In this document: positions 57,285 to 63,954 of the stretch, piece after piece
Numbering within the stretch: the stretch's first letter is position 1
Layout: each line of letters begins with the position of its first letter
Origin: Formivibrio sp.
GTDB taxonomy: Bacteria > Pseudomonadota > Gammaproteobacteria > Burkholderiales > Chitinibacteraceae
Length of the DNA stretch: 64,000 nt
Reading direction: 5' to 3'
Assembly: GCA_031291275.1 (NCBI GenBank)
Contig: JARLJJ010000435.1
Span: forward strand, 1-64,000
Notes under the pieces: model-generated
Database searches by the model: none
What the model was told of the DNA's origin: nothing
Seen by the model: the letters and a program-made list of their open reading frames with translations, nothing else
Program-made: the position numbers and the translations under genes

Positions 57285-60200
57285 GTGTCTATCCATGTCG
57301 CCCTGAATCACGTCAGTCATTATCTGTACGATCACCCCATCAGCCTCGGACCGCAAATTGTGCGCCTGCGCCCGGCGCCCCATTGCCGCACGCGGATTCT
57401 TTCCTATTCGCTGCGTGCCACGCCGGGCGAGCATTTCGTCAACTGGCAACAAGATCCGCAATCCAATTATCTGGCCCGCTTGGTTTTTCCGGAGAAAACA
57501 CGGGAACTGCGAATCGAAGTCGATCTGATCGTCGAGATGGCCGTACTTAACCCTTTCGATTTCTTCCTGGAAGAGCATGCCCAGACCTTTCCTTTTGCCT
57601 ACCAGAAAGAGGAAAGCAGCGAACTGGCCCCGTATATGCAGCGTGTATCCGTCGGGCCGTTGTTCAACAATTACTTGGCAACCATCGACAAAACACCGCA
57701 ACGCACCATCGATTTCCTGGTAAATCTCAACCGGCGGTTATCGAACGATATTCGTTACCTGATCCGGCTCGAACCGGGCGTGCAAACACCGCAGGAAACA
57801 CTGAGCAATGCGTCGGGCTCGTGCCGGGATTCAGCATGGCTGCTGGTTCAACTTTTGCGCCACGTCGGGCTCGCGGCACGTTTTGTCTCGGGTTACCTGA
57901 TCCAGCTCACCGCCGATGTGAAATCACTGGATGGCCCCAGCGGTCCGGAAGCCGACTTCACTGACCTGCATGCCTGGTGCGAGGTCTATCTGCCAGGCGC
58001 GGGATGGATCGGGTTCGATCCGACATCCGGACTGATGGCAGGCGAAGGCCATATTCCCCTGGCCTGTTCGCCTGAACCCTCCAGCGCAGCCCCAATCAGC
58101 GGCCTGGTGGAACCTTGCGAAAGCACTTTCGAACACACGATGCATGTCAGTCGCATCTGGGAAGCTCCGCGCGTTACCAAACCCTACACCGAGCAGCAAT
58201 GGGCCAAGATTGAAGCATTGGGTCACCAGATCGACGCCGATCTGGCGCGCCTGGATGTCCGTCTGACCATGGGCGGGGAACCGACCTTCATCGGCATCGA
58301 CGAACCGGATGCTGACGAGTGGAATACGGCGGCGCTGGGTCCGACCAAACGCAAATATGCCGTCGACCTCTACCAACGCATGAAGCAGAAATACGGCTCT
58401 GCCGGCCTGGTGCATTTTGGTCAGGGGAAGTGGTATCCCGGCGAACAGCTTCCGCGCTGGTCGCTCAACTGCTTCTGGCGCCGCGACGGAGAAGACATCT
58501 GGCAGAATCCGGCGCTGATTGCCGACGAGAGCAAACCCGGCTATGCCACGACCGCCGATACGGGGCCGTTTTTGATCGAAGTTGCCGAGCGGCTGGGATT
58601 GAACCCGCAATGGGTATTCCCAACGTTCGAAGACGCCTTTTATTACCTGTGGCGCGAACGCCAACTCCCCGTCAACGTTGACCCGCTTGATTCCAAACTG
58701 GACGATCCGCTGGAACGTGCCCGCTTGGCCAAGGTTTTCAGCCAAGGACTCGATGCGGTGGTCGGTCATGTGCTTCCGGTTGGCAGAGATGCCGCCGGCA
58801 AGCGCTGGCAGAGCAGCCCCTGGTTCCAGCGCGGCGACCGCTGTTATCTGGTGCCTGGAGATTCGCCACTGGGTTATCGCCTGCCGCTGGATTCCCAGCC
58901 TTGGGTCAAGGCAGCAGAATATCCTTGGCTGCATGAACCCGATCCGCACCAGGACTTTGCTGCATTGCCTGCGACGAGCACCATTCGCCGAAACGTAGCC
59001 AATCGAAGCCTGGCCGCGAGTACGCCCATCGCTCCGCCACAAGCCGGAGAATCGGCGGCGGAATTGACGCGTACTGCGCTGTGCGCCGAAGTACGCAACG
59101 GTATCCTCTATCTGTTCATGCCGCCGGCCAGTGCGCTGGAAGATTATCTGGCCCTGGTGACTGCGATTGAGGCCACTGCGGCATCAAGAAGCTGCCCGGT
59201 TTTGCTCGAAGGTTATGCGCCACCGCAAGACCCGCGCCTCAATCACTTCAGCATCACGCCCGATCCCGGCGTGATCGAGGTGAACGTTCATCCCGCCAGC
59301 AGTTGGGATGAACTGGTCGAACGCACCACCCATCTTTACGAACAAGCGCATCTATCCAGACTGACCACCGAGAAATTCATGATCGATGGTCGCCATGTGG
59401 GCACCGGCGAAGGCAACCACTTTGTACTGGGTGGCGCCACGCCAGCGGATTCGCCCTGGCTGCGCCGGCCCGATCTGCTCAGGAGCATGATTGCCTATTG
59501 GCACAACCACCCCTCGCTTTCTTACCTGTTTTCCGGACTGTTCATCGGCCCGACCTCACAGGCGCCGCGGGTAGACGAAGCCCGCAACGATGCCCTCTAC
59601 GAGCTGGAAGTCGCTTTTAGCCAATTTCCGCCCGTCGGTCAGGATTGCCCGCCCTGGCTGGTTGACCGGCTGCTGCGCAATCTGCTGGTAGATGTCACCG
59701 GCAATACCCACCGGGCCGAATTCTGTATCGACAAGCTTTACTCGCCCGATGGCCCGACGGGCCGGCTAGGCTTATTGGAACTTCGTGCATTTGAAATGCC
59801 GCCGCATGCGCAAATGAGTCTTGCCCAGCAACTGCTGCTGCGTGCACTCATCGCCCGCTTCTGGCAGGAGCCCTACGCACCAGCCCGACTGGCGCGCTGG
59901 GGCACCGAGCTGCACGACCGCTTCCTGATGCCCTGGTTTGTCGAGCAAGACTTTGCCGATGTCATCACCGAACTCAACGAAAGCGGCTATCCCGTTGACG
60001 GAAGCTGGTTTGCTCCGCATTTTGAATTCAGATTCCCCAAGGTCGGCGATTTTTCCGTCAAAGGCATTGATCTGGAATTGCGCCATGCACTGGAACCCTG
60101 GCATGTCCTGGGCGAGCAAGGCGCACCCGGCGGCACCGTGCGCTATGTCGATTCTTCCCTGGAACGTTTGCAGATATGGGTAAGCGGCTTGACACCGGAT

Positions 60201-60575
60201 CGCTACAGCTTGACCTGTAATGGCAAAACCGTCCCATTGCGCCCCACGGGCAAGGTCGGGGAGTATGTCGGTGCGGTCCGCTATCGGGCCTGGCAACCCG
60301 CTTCGTGCCTGCATCCCACCATTGGCGTCCATGCCCCGTTGACTTTCGATCTGATCGATAGCTGGATGGGGCGCTCGCTCGGCGGCTGCCAGTATCATGT
60401 GCAGCATCCAGGCGGCAGCAATTACGAAGATCTCCCGGTCAATGCCTTTGAAGCAGAAAGCCGCAGACTGGCGCGTTTCTTCCGCATGGGGCATACCCCA
60501 GGCGCATGCGCCACCCCCGAACCTACTAACCCGTCGCTCGAGCACCCATTTACGCTCGATCTACGTCGCACATAA
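57285..60575 (+). CDS. Transglutaminase fused to DUF2126 putative amidoligase
   Basis: A 1096-residue fusion. The N-terminal part (about residues 1-280) is a bacterial transglutaminase-like domain with the triad Cys180 (GSCRDSAW), His229 (DLHAWCEV) and Asp245 (GFDPTSG). The remainder (about 315-1090), beginning LTMGGEPTFIGIDEP, is DUF2126, annotated in Pfam as a putative amidoligase (from memory). The start is GTG with CAGGAGAG eight bases upstream. There is no signal peptide. It is followed after 41 bp by the ATP-grasp gene, and the whole set is GC-rich. The substrate is unknown. Confidence 0.9.
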   Translation: MSIHVALNHVSHYLYDHPISLGPQIVRLRPAPHCRTRILSYSLRATPGEHFVNWQQDPQSNYLARLVFPEKTRELRIEVDLIVEMAVLNPFDFFLEEHAQTFPFAYQKEESSELAPYMQRVSVGPLFNNYLATIDKTPQRTIDFLVNLNRRLSNDIRYLIRLEPGVQTPQETLSNASGSCRDSAWLLVQLLRHVGLAARFVSGYLIQLTADVKSLDGPSGPEADFTDLHAWCEVYLPGAGWIGFDPTSGLMAGEGHIPLACSPEPSSAAPISGLVEPCESTFEHTMHVSRIWEAPRVTKPYTEQQWAKIEALGHQIDADLARLDVRLTMGGEPTFIGIDEPDADEWNTAALGPTKRKYAVDLYQRMKQKYGSAGLVHFGQGKWYPGEQLPRWSLNCFWRRDGEDIWQNPALIADESKPGYATTADTGPFLIEVAERLGLNPQWVFPTFEDAFYYLWRERQLPVNVDPLDSKLDDPLERARLAKVFSQGLDAVVGHVLPVGRDAAGKRWQSSPWFQRGDRCYLVPGDSPLGYRLPLDSQPWVKAAEYPWLHEPDPHQDFAALPATSTIRRNVANRSLAASTPIAPPQAGESAAELTRTALCAEVRNGILYLFMPPASALEDYLALVTAIEATAASRSCPVLLEGYAPPQDPRLNHFSITPDPGVIEVNVHPASSWDELVERTTHLYEQAHLSRLTTEKFMIDGRHVGTGEGNHFVLGGATPADSPWLRRPDLLRSMIAYWHNHPSLSYLFSGLFIGPTSQAPRVDEARNDALYELEVAFSQFPPVGQDCPPWLVDRLLRNLLVDVTGNTHRAEFCIDKLYSPDGPTGRLGLLELRAFEMPPHAQMSLAQQLLLRALIARFWQEPYAPARLARWGTELHDRFLMPWFVEQDFADVITELNESGYPVDGSWFAPHFEFRFPKVGDFSVKGIDLELRHALEPWHVLGEQGAPGGTVRYVDSSLERLQIWVSGLTPDRYSLTCNGKTVPLRPTGKVGEYVGAVRYRAWQPASCLHPTIGVHAPLTFDLIDSWMGRSLGGCQYHVQHPGGSNYEDLPVNAFEAESRRLARFFRMGHTPGACATPEPTNPSLEHPFTLDLRRT

Positions 60576-60616: not shown

Positions 60617-63046
60617 ATGACGAAGTTAGCCGATTTTTATTCCTACCCGGCATCCAGCCAGCATTACGATGAAATGCTGGATGCCGACCACCAATTGCGC
60701 CCGCATTGGCAGGCCTTGATACAGCCATTGCAAGCCACATCCCCGGCAGACATTACCCGGGGATTGGCCTTGACGCGGCAGATGATCGCCGAGAATGGGG
60801 TGACCTATAACGTCTATGCCGACCCCAAGGGAGCCGATCGCCCCTGGCTGCTCGACCCCCTGCCGCTGGCGCTGCCCGCCGAAGAATGGGCCACGATTGA
60901 AGCAGGTGTGATTCAGCGTGCCGGGCTGCTTGATGCCTTGCTAGCTGATCTTTATGGCCCGCAGCAATTGCTTGCTGATGGCTTGATTCCCGCCGAACTG
61001 GCTTTTGGCCATCCTAATTTTCTTTGGCCCTGTCACGGCATCACACTGCCTGCCGGACATTGGCTACCGGTGTATGCCGTCGATCTCGCCCGTGCCGCCG
61101 ATGGTCGATGGTGGGTATTGTCCGACCGGACGCAAACACCTTCCGGCGCGGGTTATGCACTGGAAAACCGCCAGATATTGAGCCGGGTGTTGCCCGATGC
61201 CATGGCGCGCTTGCGCCCCCCGCCCCTGCTCGATTTTTTTGCCACCTTGCGCGATCACCTGCTTTGCCTGGCACCGCCTGACGAACCTGCGCTGGCCGTG
61301 GTACTGACACCGGGCCATCTCAACGAAACCTATTTCGAACACGCCTATATCGCCCGCCGTCTGGGATTACCGCTGGTGGAAGGCCTTGATCTGACCGTAC
61401 GCGGCGATACGGTCTACCTGAAAACCCTGTCCGGCTTGCATCGGGTACACGGTATTTTGCGCCGGCTGGATGATGACTACTGCGACCCGGTCGAACTGCG
61501 TGGCGATTCCGCCCTCGGCGTTCCCGGCTTACTGACCGCATTGCGCGCCGGCCGCGTGACCCTTTCCAATCCGTTGGGAACGGGCGTGCTGGAATCGCCG
61601 GCATGGCACGGCTTTCTTCCGGGCCTGGCCCAGCACCTGATCGGCCAGGAATTACTGCTCCCTTCCGTCGCCAGTTGGTGGTGTGGAGAGAAGCCAGCCC
61701 GTGAACATGTCCTGGAGCATCTCGACCAGCTTGTCCTCAAGCCCACCTACCCCACCCAGCATTTCGAGCCGGTATTTGGCGCCAACATGGACAAGGCCTT
61801 GCGCGAACAGGTCATCGAACGCCTGCAAAATCGCCCCCATACCCTGGTTGCGCAAGAACGCCTTTCTCTCTCACAAGCGCCAACCTGGCGCGACGATGGC
61901 AAGGGTCTGGTTGCACGCACCTTGGGTTTACGCGTTTACGCTGTCGCCACGCCTGAAGGTTACCGGGTCATGCCCGGGGGACTCGCGCGAATTGCCGGGG
62001 AGGCCGATGTTGATGTGATCTCGATGCAGCGCGGCGGCAGCAGCAAGGATGTATGGATTCAGAATTGGCAGCCCGAGAAATACAAACCCAGCATCAAACA
62101 CCTACCCGTGCGCCATGATGAACTGCCTTCACGCCAGGCTGAAAACCTGTTCTGGCTGGGGCGTTACACCGAACGTTGCGAAGACAAGATCCGACTGTTA
62201 CGCGCGACATTTGCCAACCCCCAAGGCAATCAAACCGACAACCCGATCCAGCCGGAGGCAGAGGCCATCTGCCGGGAATTCGGTTTATTGCCTGAAGATG
62301 GGCACAATTTCCTGGATGCGACGCTGCCTTACGGCTTGGTGGCCAATATGCAAAGCTTGCTCTGGTGCGGCGGACAGGTACGCAGCCGGCTTTCGGCCGA
62401 GAACTGGCATGCGTTGATGAATGTGAATCGTCGCTTCAACGAACAGATCAGCCAGGACGTGGACTCAGGCGAGATTCTGGATGAACTGGTTCTGGCCATG
62501 GCGGGCTTGGCAGGTTTTGCGCTGGACAATATGACGCGTGAAAACAGTTGGCGTCTGCTGATGTTGGGGCGACGCCTGGAGCGACTGCATTTCTTTGCCA
62601 GCCTGATGGCAAAATGCCTGACCGAAGGCAAACAGCTCTCGCAACCGGTGCTGGAATGGCTGCTCGACGTGGGCGACTGCACGATCACCTACCGTACCCG
62701 CTACCTGTCGATTCCGCAGACCAGCAGCACGCTCGATCTCTTGATCCGTGATCGCTCCAACCCGCGGGCGCTGGCTTTCCAATGCCATGTCATCCGCATG
62801 ATGTATGGCGAAATGGCTGAATCCTTGGGCATCCCCGTCGAGCAGGATCTATTGCCCGTATTGCCGGTCATCGATGCCGTAGACCTGGCCGAGCTCGATG
62901 GGGAAAGCGACCGGGCGCAACTTGAACGAGAGCGCCTGTCAAATCAACTACAAGCCCTGGCGCACGCGGCAGGACGCTGCTCTGACCGCATATCGCTCAA
63001 GCTGTTTACGCATACCGATCCGCCATTGCAGGCCATCCTGACATGA
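60617..63046 (+). CDS. Circularly permuted ATP-grasp protein fused to alpha-E domain
   Basis: An 809-residue fusion. Residues about 1-480 match the circularly permuted ATP-grasp family (COG2308, DUF404/407 type). They include NVYADPKGADRPWLLDP, ALENRQILSR, an LPLVEGLDLTVRG strand and a Lys-bearing LVLKPTYPTQ. Residues about 490-805 are the alpha-E domain (DUF403/COG2307), starting SRQAENLFWLGRYTERCED. In many genomes these are two separate genes. It ends with an ATGA overlap to the next gene. The reaction is predicted to be ATP-dependent ligation of an amide; substrates are not known. Confidence 0.9.
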   Translation: MTKLADFYSYPASSQHYDEMLDADHQLRPHWQALIQPLQATSPADITRGLALTRQMIAENGVTYNVYADPKGADRPWLLDPLPLALPAEEWATIEAGVIQRAGLLDALLADLYGPQQLLADGLIPAELAFGHPNFLWPCHGITLPAGHWLPVYAVDLARAADGRWWVLSDRTQTPSGAGYALENRQILSRVLPDAMARLRPPPLLDFFATLRDHLLCLAPPDEPALAVVLTPGHLNETYFEHAYIARRLGLPLVEGLDLTVRGDTVYLKTLSGLHRVHGILRRLDDDYCDPVELRGDSALGVPGLLTALRAGRVTLSNPLGTGVLESPAWHGFLPGLAQHLIGQELLLPSVASWWCGEKPAREHVLEHLDQLVLKPTYPTQHFEPVFGANMDKALREQVIERLQNRPHTLVAQERLSLSQAPTWRDDGKGLVARTLGLRVYAVATPEGYRVMPGGLARIAGEADVDVISMQRGGSSKDVWIQNWQPEKYKPSIKHLPVRHDELPSRQAENLFWLGRYTERCEDKIRLLRATFANPQGNQTDNPIQPEAEAICREFGLLPEDGHNFLDATLPYGLVANMQSLLWCGGQVRSRLSAENWHALMNVNRRFNEQISQDVDSGEILDELVLAMAGLAGFALDNMTRENSWRLLMLGRRLERLHFFASLMAKCLTEGKQLSQPVLEWLLDVGDCTITYRTRYLSIPQTSSTLDLLIRDRSNPRALAFQCHVIRMMYGEMAESLGIPVEQDLLPVLPVIDAVDLAELDGESDRAQLERERLSNQLQALAHAAGRCSDRISLKLFTHTDPPLQAILT

Positions 63047-63954
63047 ACCGCTACGTTTACCGGATTGAACACCAGACAACCTACCACTATCTTGGCCCGG
63101 TGACGCTGTCGCGCCATCTCTTGCACATGACGCCACGCGCCACCGATTGGCAGGAGAGGCTGGCCCACACGCTGCATTTTTCCACCGAACCAAGCCTGCT
63201 GGACAACAGCTTCGATGCCTTCGGCAACCCGGTGTGCCGGGCCGAAATCGACACCCCCTATAAGCATCTCACGGTATCGACCGATATGCAGGTACGCATC
63301 GTACCGCGCAGCCAGTTTACCTATTCAGCGTCTTTACCCTGGGAAACCGTGCGCGACATGCTGGCCTACCAGGGCAAGCCGCGGCGTGCAGAACAGCTCA
63401 ATGCACTGCGCTACCGGACCGAATCGCCCTACGTACGCATCAAACATGAGCTGAGCCAGTACGCTGCAGACTGCTTCACCCCGGGCCTTCCGCTGCTGGC
63501 CGGAGCCGAAGCCTTGATGCAGAAAATCCACCACGAGTTCACCTATTCGCCGGGCAGCACCGCCGTGGCCACGCCGATGCTGACCGCATTTCACCAGCGC
63601 CAGGGCGTCTGCCAGGACTTCGCCCACATCATGATCGGCTGCCTGCGCTCGCTCGGACTGGCCGCGCACTATGTGAGCGGCTACCTGCGCACCGATCCGC
63701 CCCCCGGCCAGCCGAGGCTGACAGGCGCCGATGCCTCGCATGCCTGGGTCGCCGTGTATTGCCCGCCGCAAGGCTGGGTGGAACTCGATCCAACCAACAA
63801 TTTGCGCGTCGACACCCATCACATTACCCTGGCCTGGGGGCGCGATTTCGGCGATGTCTCTCCCCTGCGCGGCATCCTCGCCGGGGCTTCGCTCGACAAG
63901 ATGGAAGTCAAGGTGACGGTGACGCCGCTGGCTGATGCAATTGTCGCTAATTAG
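63043..63954 (+). CDS. Transglutaminase-like family protein
   Basis: A 303-residue protein with an N-terminal bacterial transglutaminase beta-domain (VYRIEHQTTYHYLGPVTLSRH) and a transglutaminase core. The core has an intact triad of Cys190 (GVCQDFAH), His233 (SHAWVAVY) and Asp249 (ELDPTNN). It is short of a signal peptide, so probably cytosolic. The start overlaps the stop of the ATP-grasp gene by four bases, so the two are co-translated. The window ends 46 bp later, so a possible fourth gene is not visible. Confidence 0.92.
   Translation: MNRYVYRIEHQTTYHYLGPVTLSRHLLHMTPRATDWQERLAHTLHFSTEPSLLDNSFDAFGNPVCRAEIDTPYKHLTVSTDMQVRIVPRSQFTYSASLPWETVRDMLAYQGKPRRAEQLNALRYRTESPYVRIKHELSQYAADCFTPGLPLLAGAEALMQKIHHEFTYSPGSTAVATPMLTAFHQRQGVCQDFAHIMIGCLRSLGLAAHYVSGYLRTDPPPGQPRLTGADASHAWVAVYCPPQGWVELDPTNNLRVDTHHITLAWGRDFGDVSPLRGILAGASLDKMEVKVTVTPLADAIVAN

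Follow-up and report, generated by a model that had tools for sequence, protein, structure and literature searches.

Within the window (the whole stretch of DNA that was analysed, 64,000 nucleotides) one gene joins a circularly permuted ATP-grasp domain to an Alpha-E domain in a single polypeptide, and this raises the question of whether Alpha-E acts here directly with a ligase. The original prediction took the fusion to strengthen the case that it does, reasoning that where the two domains are separate genes elsewhere, their fusion implies that they act as one complex. In the excerpts available to us, an operon of ATP-grasp, Alpha-E, transglutaminase and Anbu genes is described as a system predicted to serve in peptide synthesis or tagging (Iyer et al. 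2009; PMC5666114, PMC6376114, PMC3597751), and in 2013 Pfam architectures placed Alpha-E instances near both CP_ATPgrasp_1 and Bact_transglu_N (PMC3597751). These excerpts contain no proven function for the widespread ATP-grasp/Alpha-E/transglutaminase systems.

Organization of the fused gene and its neighbors

The fused gene (60617–63046, + strand) is a single ATG-to-stop frame of 809 codons with zero internal stops, and the 809-residue product contains both Pfam domains in the predicted order. CP_ATPgrasp_2 matches at residues 83–460 (E 1.5e-145, 485 bits against a cut-off of 32) and Alpha-E (PF04168) at residues 503–794 (E 1.1e-48, 167 bits against a cut-off of 20.8), the former being a whole-domain match to the circularly permuted ATP-grasp family (PF14403 / PF04174). 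Both matches are far above the curated cut-offs and chance is therefore ruled out, including the possibility that this is a chance open frame. From Pfam, a predicted model and its fold matches, we place the ATP-grasp domain, with a glutathione-synthetase-like fold, at about residues 14–484 (60656–62068, +); a linker occupies residues 485–502 (62069–62122, +) as judged from blocks of low pLDDT and the Pfam boundaries, and the Alpha-E domain, also found by an Alpha-E search of the genome, residues 503–794 (62123–62998, +). A join near residue 485 had been proposed and agrees with the end of the ATP-grasp domain near 484, but the sequence quoted for it, HDELPSRQAENLF, sits at residues 500–512, which is the start of Alpha-E.

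The predicted full-length model has a pLDDT of 88.8 and a pTM of 0.89, the latter suggesting a defined mutual placement of the two domains within the chain; the linker of ~18 residues is of low confidence (pLDDT 68 in block 481–490 and 57 in block 491–500). The ATP-grasp half of the model has the ATP-grasp/glutathione-synthetase fold, aligning with 3n6x at a Z score of 42.4 (rmsd 3.1, 446 aligned residues, 33% identity) and with yeast glutathione synthetase 1m0w at a Z score of 24.8 (rmsd 3.9, 412 aligned). Modelled alone, the Alpha-E domain has a pLDDT of 91.4 and a pTM of 0.90. Foldseek gave no match of this model to solved structures at E < 0.001, a sequence search of solved structures with Alpha-E gave no match, and the best Z scores of 9.4 (cytochrome bd) and 9.1 (NasR) are within the background for helical models.

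The fusion is the second of three genes in the order transglutaminase-DUF2126 / fusion / transglutaminase. The first gene (57285–60575, +; 1096 aa, GTG start) encodes a transglutaminase-like protein joined to DUF2126, a putative amidoligase (Pfam Bact_transglu_N 7.6e-23, Transglut_core 8.6e-17, DUF2126 E 0); Cys180, His229 and Asp245 are present in its transglutaminase part, and its DUF2126 is the sole DUF2126 match in the genome. The third (63043–63954, +; 303 aa) encodes a transglutaminase-like protein by Pfam, in which a residue check finds Cys190, His233 and Asp249, and its start shares four bases with the fusion stop (63043–63046). A transglutaminase gene lies downstream in 91/102 fused-clade loci and DUF2126 upstream in 71/102, both counts being depressed by contig ends and start-calling. 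Among the fetched loci the catalytic Cys and His are kept in 112/112 single transglutaminases and in 80/80 of those joined to DUF2126, and the Asp in 110/112 and 80/80 respectively. Neither the window nor the 2.9 kb of contig past its end contains an Anbu-like frame, and NCBIfam profiles at E 0.001 assign no family to any of the three genes. At one other locus (L113) the DUF2126 gene is in two frames of 399 and 702 aa, which is either a broken gene or a sequencing error. Just past the window end (contig C175, 64347–64940) the cluster is followed by a frame that by eye resembles a REP-associated transposase.

Distribution and origins of the fusion

Both domains occur in this order and in a single frame in 122 proteins of the fused clade, including that of the window, and no two of these are ≥99.5% identical; the hidden frameshift against which the locus was checked, and an assembly artefact likewise, are thereby ruled out. 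These 122 comprise 102 proteins from the fused-clade loci and the window together with 20 new ones, and leave out an independent fusion at locus L034, described below. Among 274 sampled genomes of the class, Alpha-E is present in 79 and fused in 22 including this genome, as judged by open frame, and besides the window 21 of the class fusion loci were read. The comparison of domain architectures suggested by the original prediction was extended across 398 genomes of one phylum, of which 212 have Alpha-E and 118 the fusion (114 top rows plus G013, G437, G677 and G473); in two of the 118 (G575 and G618) the match is interrupted by a stop codon, and the best stretch of G385 runs out within the ATP-grasp portion of a long open frame. 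Alpha-E without a fusion among the matches listed is found in 94/212, some of which may still contain a weak fusion.

When one genome per species was scanned, at least 586 confirmed relatives were returned. The best 80 of these were kept, a set biased towards the query, and they include members of the Pseudomonadota, Acidobacteriota, Planctomycetota, Verrucomicrobiota, Kiritimatiellota, Myxococcota and Bacteroidota. NCBI records of two relatives (H9 and H11, from a plasmid search used for names only) carry the name 'circularly permuted type 2 ATP-grasp protein' and cover 99–100% of the fused protein. Both domains, their cluster and the fusion itself were already known or annotated, and since the fusion is both frequent and annotated, the architecture is an ordinary one.

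A tree of 125 ATP-grasp domains, built by a quick method with SH-aLRT support only and omitting 18 near-duplicate or partial rows of 143, resolves two groups, one of 85 fused rows (support 100) and one of 39 separate rows. The single exception is a fused protein (L034 8741–11377, +, in genome G258) that is nested among the separate ATP-grasps and keeps 13/13 of the signature residues described below; it adjoins a degenerate fusion, such that both kinds stand side by side in this genome. Placement of single long branches, such as L034 5330–7930, is unsure. The nested position of L034 8741–11377 indicates that the domains have been joined at least twice, and two origins favour a physical association of ATP-grasp with Alpha-E. 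To this extent the proposal that fusion implies one complex gains support, although the fusion is common and is no telling exception. On its residues, L034 8741–11377 appears to be a natural single-chain form of the active pair, and is a possible object for studying Alpha-E.

Loss of signature residues in the ATP-grasp half

We aligned 103 fused ATP-grasp domains (the 102 of the fused clade including the window, and the independent fusion of L034) with 40 separate ones, and picked 13 signature positions as invariant in the latter, such that a score of 13 for the separate genes is true by construction. Numbered as in L003, the separate ATP-grasp from the window's own genome, these are E188-x-N190-x-R192, D346-D347-K348, K395, G401-G402-Y403-G404, D455 and N486, each present in 100% of the 40. 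At the E-x-N-x-R (ExN) motif the window protein has S169-D170-R171-T172-Q173 (61121–61135, +), and the invariant D-D-K reads E326-S327-P328, with P328 at the site of the first phosphate lysine (61592–61600, +). K375 is retained but is followed by QHFE (residues 381–384) where the separate proteins have the GGYG glycine loop (61739–61768, +); G437 replaces the invariant Asp of V-D-L-R (61925–61927, +), and S469 is found at the N486 site. The 102 fused-clade proteins keep none of the 13 residues in 11 instances, one in 68, two in 21 and three in 2.

Because the positions had been selected for invariance, we examined sequences outside the alignment, in which 12/12 separate genes are intact and 20/20 fused genes have lost the signature. 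The 12 derive from 31 rows labelled separate, of which one was dropped (L019, a fused gene clipped by the locus end) and 18 were already aligned, giving 40 + 12 = 52 distinct separate ATP-grasp genes. The separate homologue of solved structure, 3n6x, also has all 13 residues. The ExN motif is thus present in 52/52 distinct separate genes and in 0/122 fused-clade proteins, where no protein keeps the ExN Asn or the D-L-R Asp, two keep the ExN Glu and one the DDK Lys.

Typical catalytic residues of the ATP-grasp superfamily are, in the available text of one account, two lysines, an acidic residue and the ExN motif (PMC4431377). The accessible part of a study of yeast glutathione synthetase assigns K324 and K382 as phosphate-binding lysines, has the glycine-rich loop contact the phosphates, and has D130, E146, E386 and E442 serve two Mg ions (PMC2845819). 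By motif, order and spacing we infer that yeast D130, E146, K324, K382 and E442 correspond to L003 D175, E188, K348, K395 and D455, and on this mapping the fusion would keep one acidic residue and one lysine, and would have lost two Mg ligands, one lysine and the loop. The window protein lacks the ExN motif, one of the two phosphate lysines (positions taken from order and spacing) and the glycine loop that mark an active ligase.

These losses are accompanied by near-fixation of other residues. Among the 102 aligned fused-clade proteins, N190 has become R in 95% and R192 has become Q in 96%, the last Ser of PSGVS is replaced by Gly in 100% after rounding, a Ser of NSSQGG by Gln in 91%, and the first Asp of DDK by Glu in 90% (92/102; E326 in the window). 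Together with the intact Cys and His of the neighbouring transglutaminases, the fixation on new letters indicates that the loss is specific and that the pocket is still constrained.

Could the fused protein nonetheless be a working ATP-grasp amide ligase whose site has been rebuilt from other residues, with Alpha-E as a covalently attached helper? The fold is predicted with high confidence to be intact, glutamate is newly conserved at positions 326 and 237, and E326 could compensate for the lost residues; for another ATP-grasp clade, the available part of the same superfamily account proposes that residues from other positions have taken over from the catalytic ones (PMC4431377). Moreover, the second lysine (the K375 site) is retained in 82/122, the first acidic residue in 112/122 and the D-L-R Arg in 122/122, such that some nucleotide binding may remain, which would count against a pseudo-ligase. 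However, the ExN motif is lost in 122/122 and the linker lysine in 121/122, no substitute glycine loop is present, and the separate enzymes never vary at these sites (52/52 distinct genes). Judged by these residues the ATP-grasp half is probably not a working ligase, and we consider a rebuilt catalytic site improbable. An ordinary fusion of a working ligase was dropped as first choice on the same residue losses. In searches for inactive or pseudo ATP-grasps we found no paper on this family.

In some pseudokinases the pocket has been repurposed for another ligand or reaction. The fused ATP-grasp half might similarly bind another ligand or carry out another reaction through Arg171, Gln173, Glu326 and Gln471. 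Selection for a new pocket looks likelier than decay given that these sites are 90–96% fixed in the 102 fused-clade proteins, on letters unlike those of the separate clade, but no ligand or reaction is known, and the 20 new fused sequences vary at some of the sites (R, H or Q at 171); a repurposed pocket by itself seems to us a rather unlikely account.

Conservation and loss in the Alpha-E half

A comparison of 99 fused with 44 separate Alpha-E domains shows that the ER motifs are common to both sets. In the window the first motif, R516-Y-T-E519-R520 (62162–62176, +), and the second ER pair, E655-R656 (62579–62584, +), are kept, and the residues concerned (R516, E519, R520, G651, E655 and R656) are found in 91–100% of fused rows. 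The window domain thus belongs to Alpha-E (PF04168) by both the profile match and the conserved ER motif. Another set of residues (R100, E101, N102, E116, N119, D179, R183 and W207 in L003 Alpha-E) is 93–100% fixed in the separate domains and missing from most fused ones, N119 being kept in 35% of fused rows. The window Alpha-E lacks R100, E101, N102, E116, N119, D179 and R183, a set defined by this analysis rather than by any published definition.

The residue losses in ATP-grasp and Alpha-E together indicate that both halves have diverged from the active pair. That Alpha-E acts here with the ligase, as had been proposed, finds no support on either side of the join: the ATP-grasp half is without ExN, one phosphate lysine, the glycine loop and an acidic residue, with nearly all of the 122 proteins alike, and the fused Alpha-E has itself lost most of the polar residues near-fixed in separate Alpha-E. 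Another possibility is that the domains were joined for co-expression only and act independently, which would make the join uninformative about a complex. The predicted low confidence of the linker at 485–502 would fit this, but the two fusion origins, the whole-chain pTM and the departure of both halves from their separate forms all speak against it, and we regard it as very improbable.

Co-occurrence of the fusion with a separate pair

As expected from the original prediction, the two domains are encoded elsewhere by adjacent separate genes, and this is so in the same genome. Its one other Alpha-E match, on contig C477, is a separate gene between ATP-grasp and transglutaminase genes, within an ATP-grasp / Alpha-E / transglutaminase / Anbu-like operon (L003 6798–10898, − strand), the Anbu-like frame being named from its size, its place and its matches to like-placed frames of other loci. 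The fused cluster thus shares its genome with a four-gene operon of the classical kind.

All 118 fusion genomes of the surveyed phylum have at least two Alpha-E matches (118/118), the second being known for most of them as a match count and not as an individual match; in one (G460) it is a contig-end fragment. Among the 94 genomes with Alpha-E and no listed fusion, five have two Alpha-E matches (G364, G623, G649, G704 and G390). Another Alpha-E match is present in 22/22 fusion genomes of the class sample, and a second Alpha-E in 48/50 genomes found by way of fusion loci in several phyla, these being the genomes of 50 among the 80 loci kept (the best 80 of at least 586 relatives); for those of the 50 outside the surveyed phylum the count is 10/12. 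The two fusion genomes without a second Alpha-E (G295 and G304) are metagenome bins, and G295 has an ATP-grasp fragment. One of the 50, from Azospirillum brasilense (locus L110), has the fusion as well as the separate pair. The separate pair lies inside the fetched stretch of the fusion in 11/21 class loci and a fused intact pair in a twelfth (L034). In the window's own genome the fusion and the separate pair are on different contigs, and linkage alone therefore fails to explain the co-occurrence. The surveyed genomes share ancestry and are not independent samples, and we give no p-value.

Two loci show other arrangements. In G437 (L178) a separate pair is directly upstream of a degenerate fusion, the whole tandem array fitting into 5.3 kb. 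In G081 (L039 7514–9132, −) broken pieces of a separate ATP-grasp and Alpha-E are near the fusion, and an intact Alpha-E gene is elsewhere in the genome.

A probable non-catalytic partner of an intact pair

We think it reasonably probable that the fusion is an ancient pseudo-ligase/Alpha-E paralogue that serves as a non-catalytic partner of an intact pair and of DUF2126. This reading draws on the residue losses and their specificity, the co-occurrence with a second Alpha-E, the continued constraint on the pocket, the gene order and the single group formed in the tree; from these we infer a loss of activity, formation of a complex and a scaffold role. The fusion would be an ancient and widespread paralogue of the two-gene pair of circularly permuted ATP-grasp and Alpha-E. 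The losses would date to the ancestor of the clade: from the ATP-grasp half the glycine loop, the linker lysine, the ExN motif that binds metal and one more acidic residue would have gone, and from the Alpha-E half several polar residues. The fold and the ER motifs would have been kept, and conservation would have settled on different residues in the pocket. Such a protein most likely no longer makes acyl-phosphates. Instead it may replace the active pair as one chain without catalysis, a subunit that acts as a scaffold or binds substrate and would connect the intact ATP-grasp/Alpha-E pair, whose genes lie elsewhere in the genome, with the DUF2126 ligase and both transglutaminases from its own cluster.

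Several observations weigh against a partner role. For a related system, a co-expression pull-down with Anbu as bait gave no complex, with ATP-grasp against Alpha-E not among the pairs tested in the available account (PMC6376114), and the second Alpha-E is missing from G295 and G304 and is a fragment only in G460. At three loci (L055, L062 and L066) the transglutaminase-DUF2126 gene adjoins a separate pair and Anbu with no fusion at that place, which shows that DUF2126 is not bound to the fusion alone.

A more elaborate version of the partner role, in which a phylum-crossing clade of pseudo-ligases has a pocket rebuilt on the fixed Arg, Gln and Glu for a new ligand or reaction, and works only as a pseudoenzyme-enzyme heteromer with the intact pair of ATP-grasp and Alpha-E, as part of a peptide-tagging pathway in bacteria, strikes us as doubtful if conceivable.

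If the fusion is a pseudo-ligase, then ligase assays on the fused protein would be misdirected, and DUF2126 and the separate ATP-grasp would be the ligases to test. The co-occurrence also gives a testable prediction, namely that the fusion needs the separate pair. In the available part of one study, the Yersinia bercovieri ATP-grasp, which a separate gene of an Anbu operon encodes, released phosphate from ATP (PMC6376114), and this is the activity that the fusion is expected to lack. We found no report of activity for a fused protein in the portions of the literature accessible to us, nor in these portions the loss of the ATP-grasp active site together with a second Alpha-E in the fused lineage, which Iyer et al. 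2009 may state.

Comparison with known systems

The name 'circularly permuted type 2 ATP-grasp protein' in database records describes the fusion as an ATP-grasp, whereas its residues argue against a working ligase. Eukaryotic glutathione synthetases (1m0w, 2hgs) have a fold colinear with its ATP-grasp half (Z about 25), but at about 11% identity most catalytic residues are not in common. That half also shares its fold with 3n6x, a putative glutathionylspermidine synthase of Methylobacillus flagellatus, which differs in being a 474-residue chain without Alpha-E and in carrying the full signature. The Anbu operon system has the same two domain families and the same transglutaminase neighbours as the fused cluster; the fused cluster differs from it in that the two domains form one chain, a DUF2126 protein rather than Anbu lies alongside, and the ATP-grasp residues are lost.
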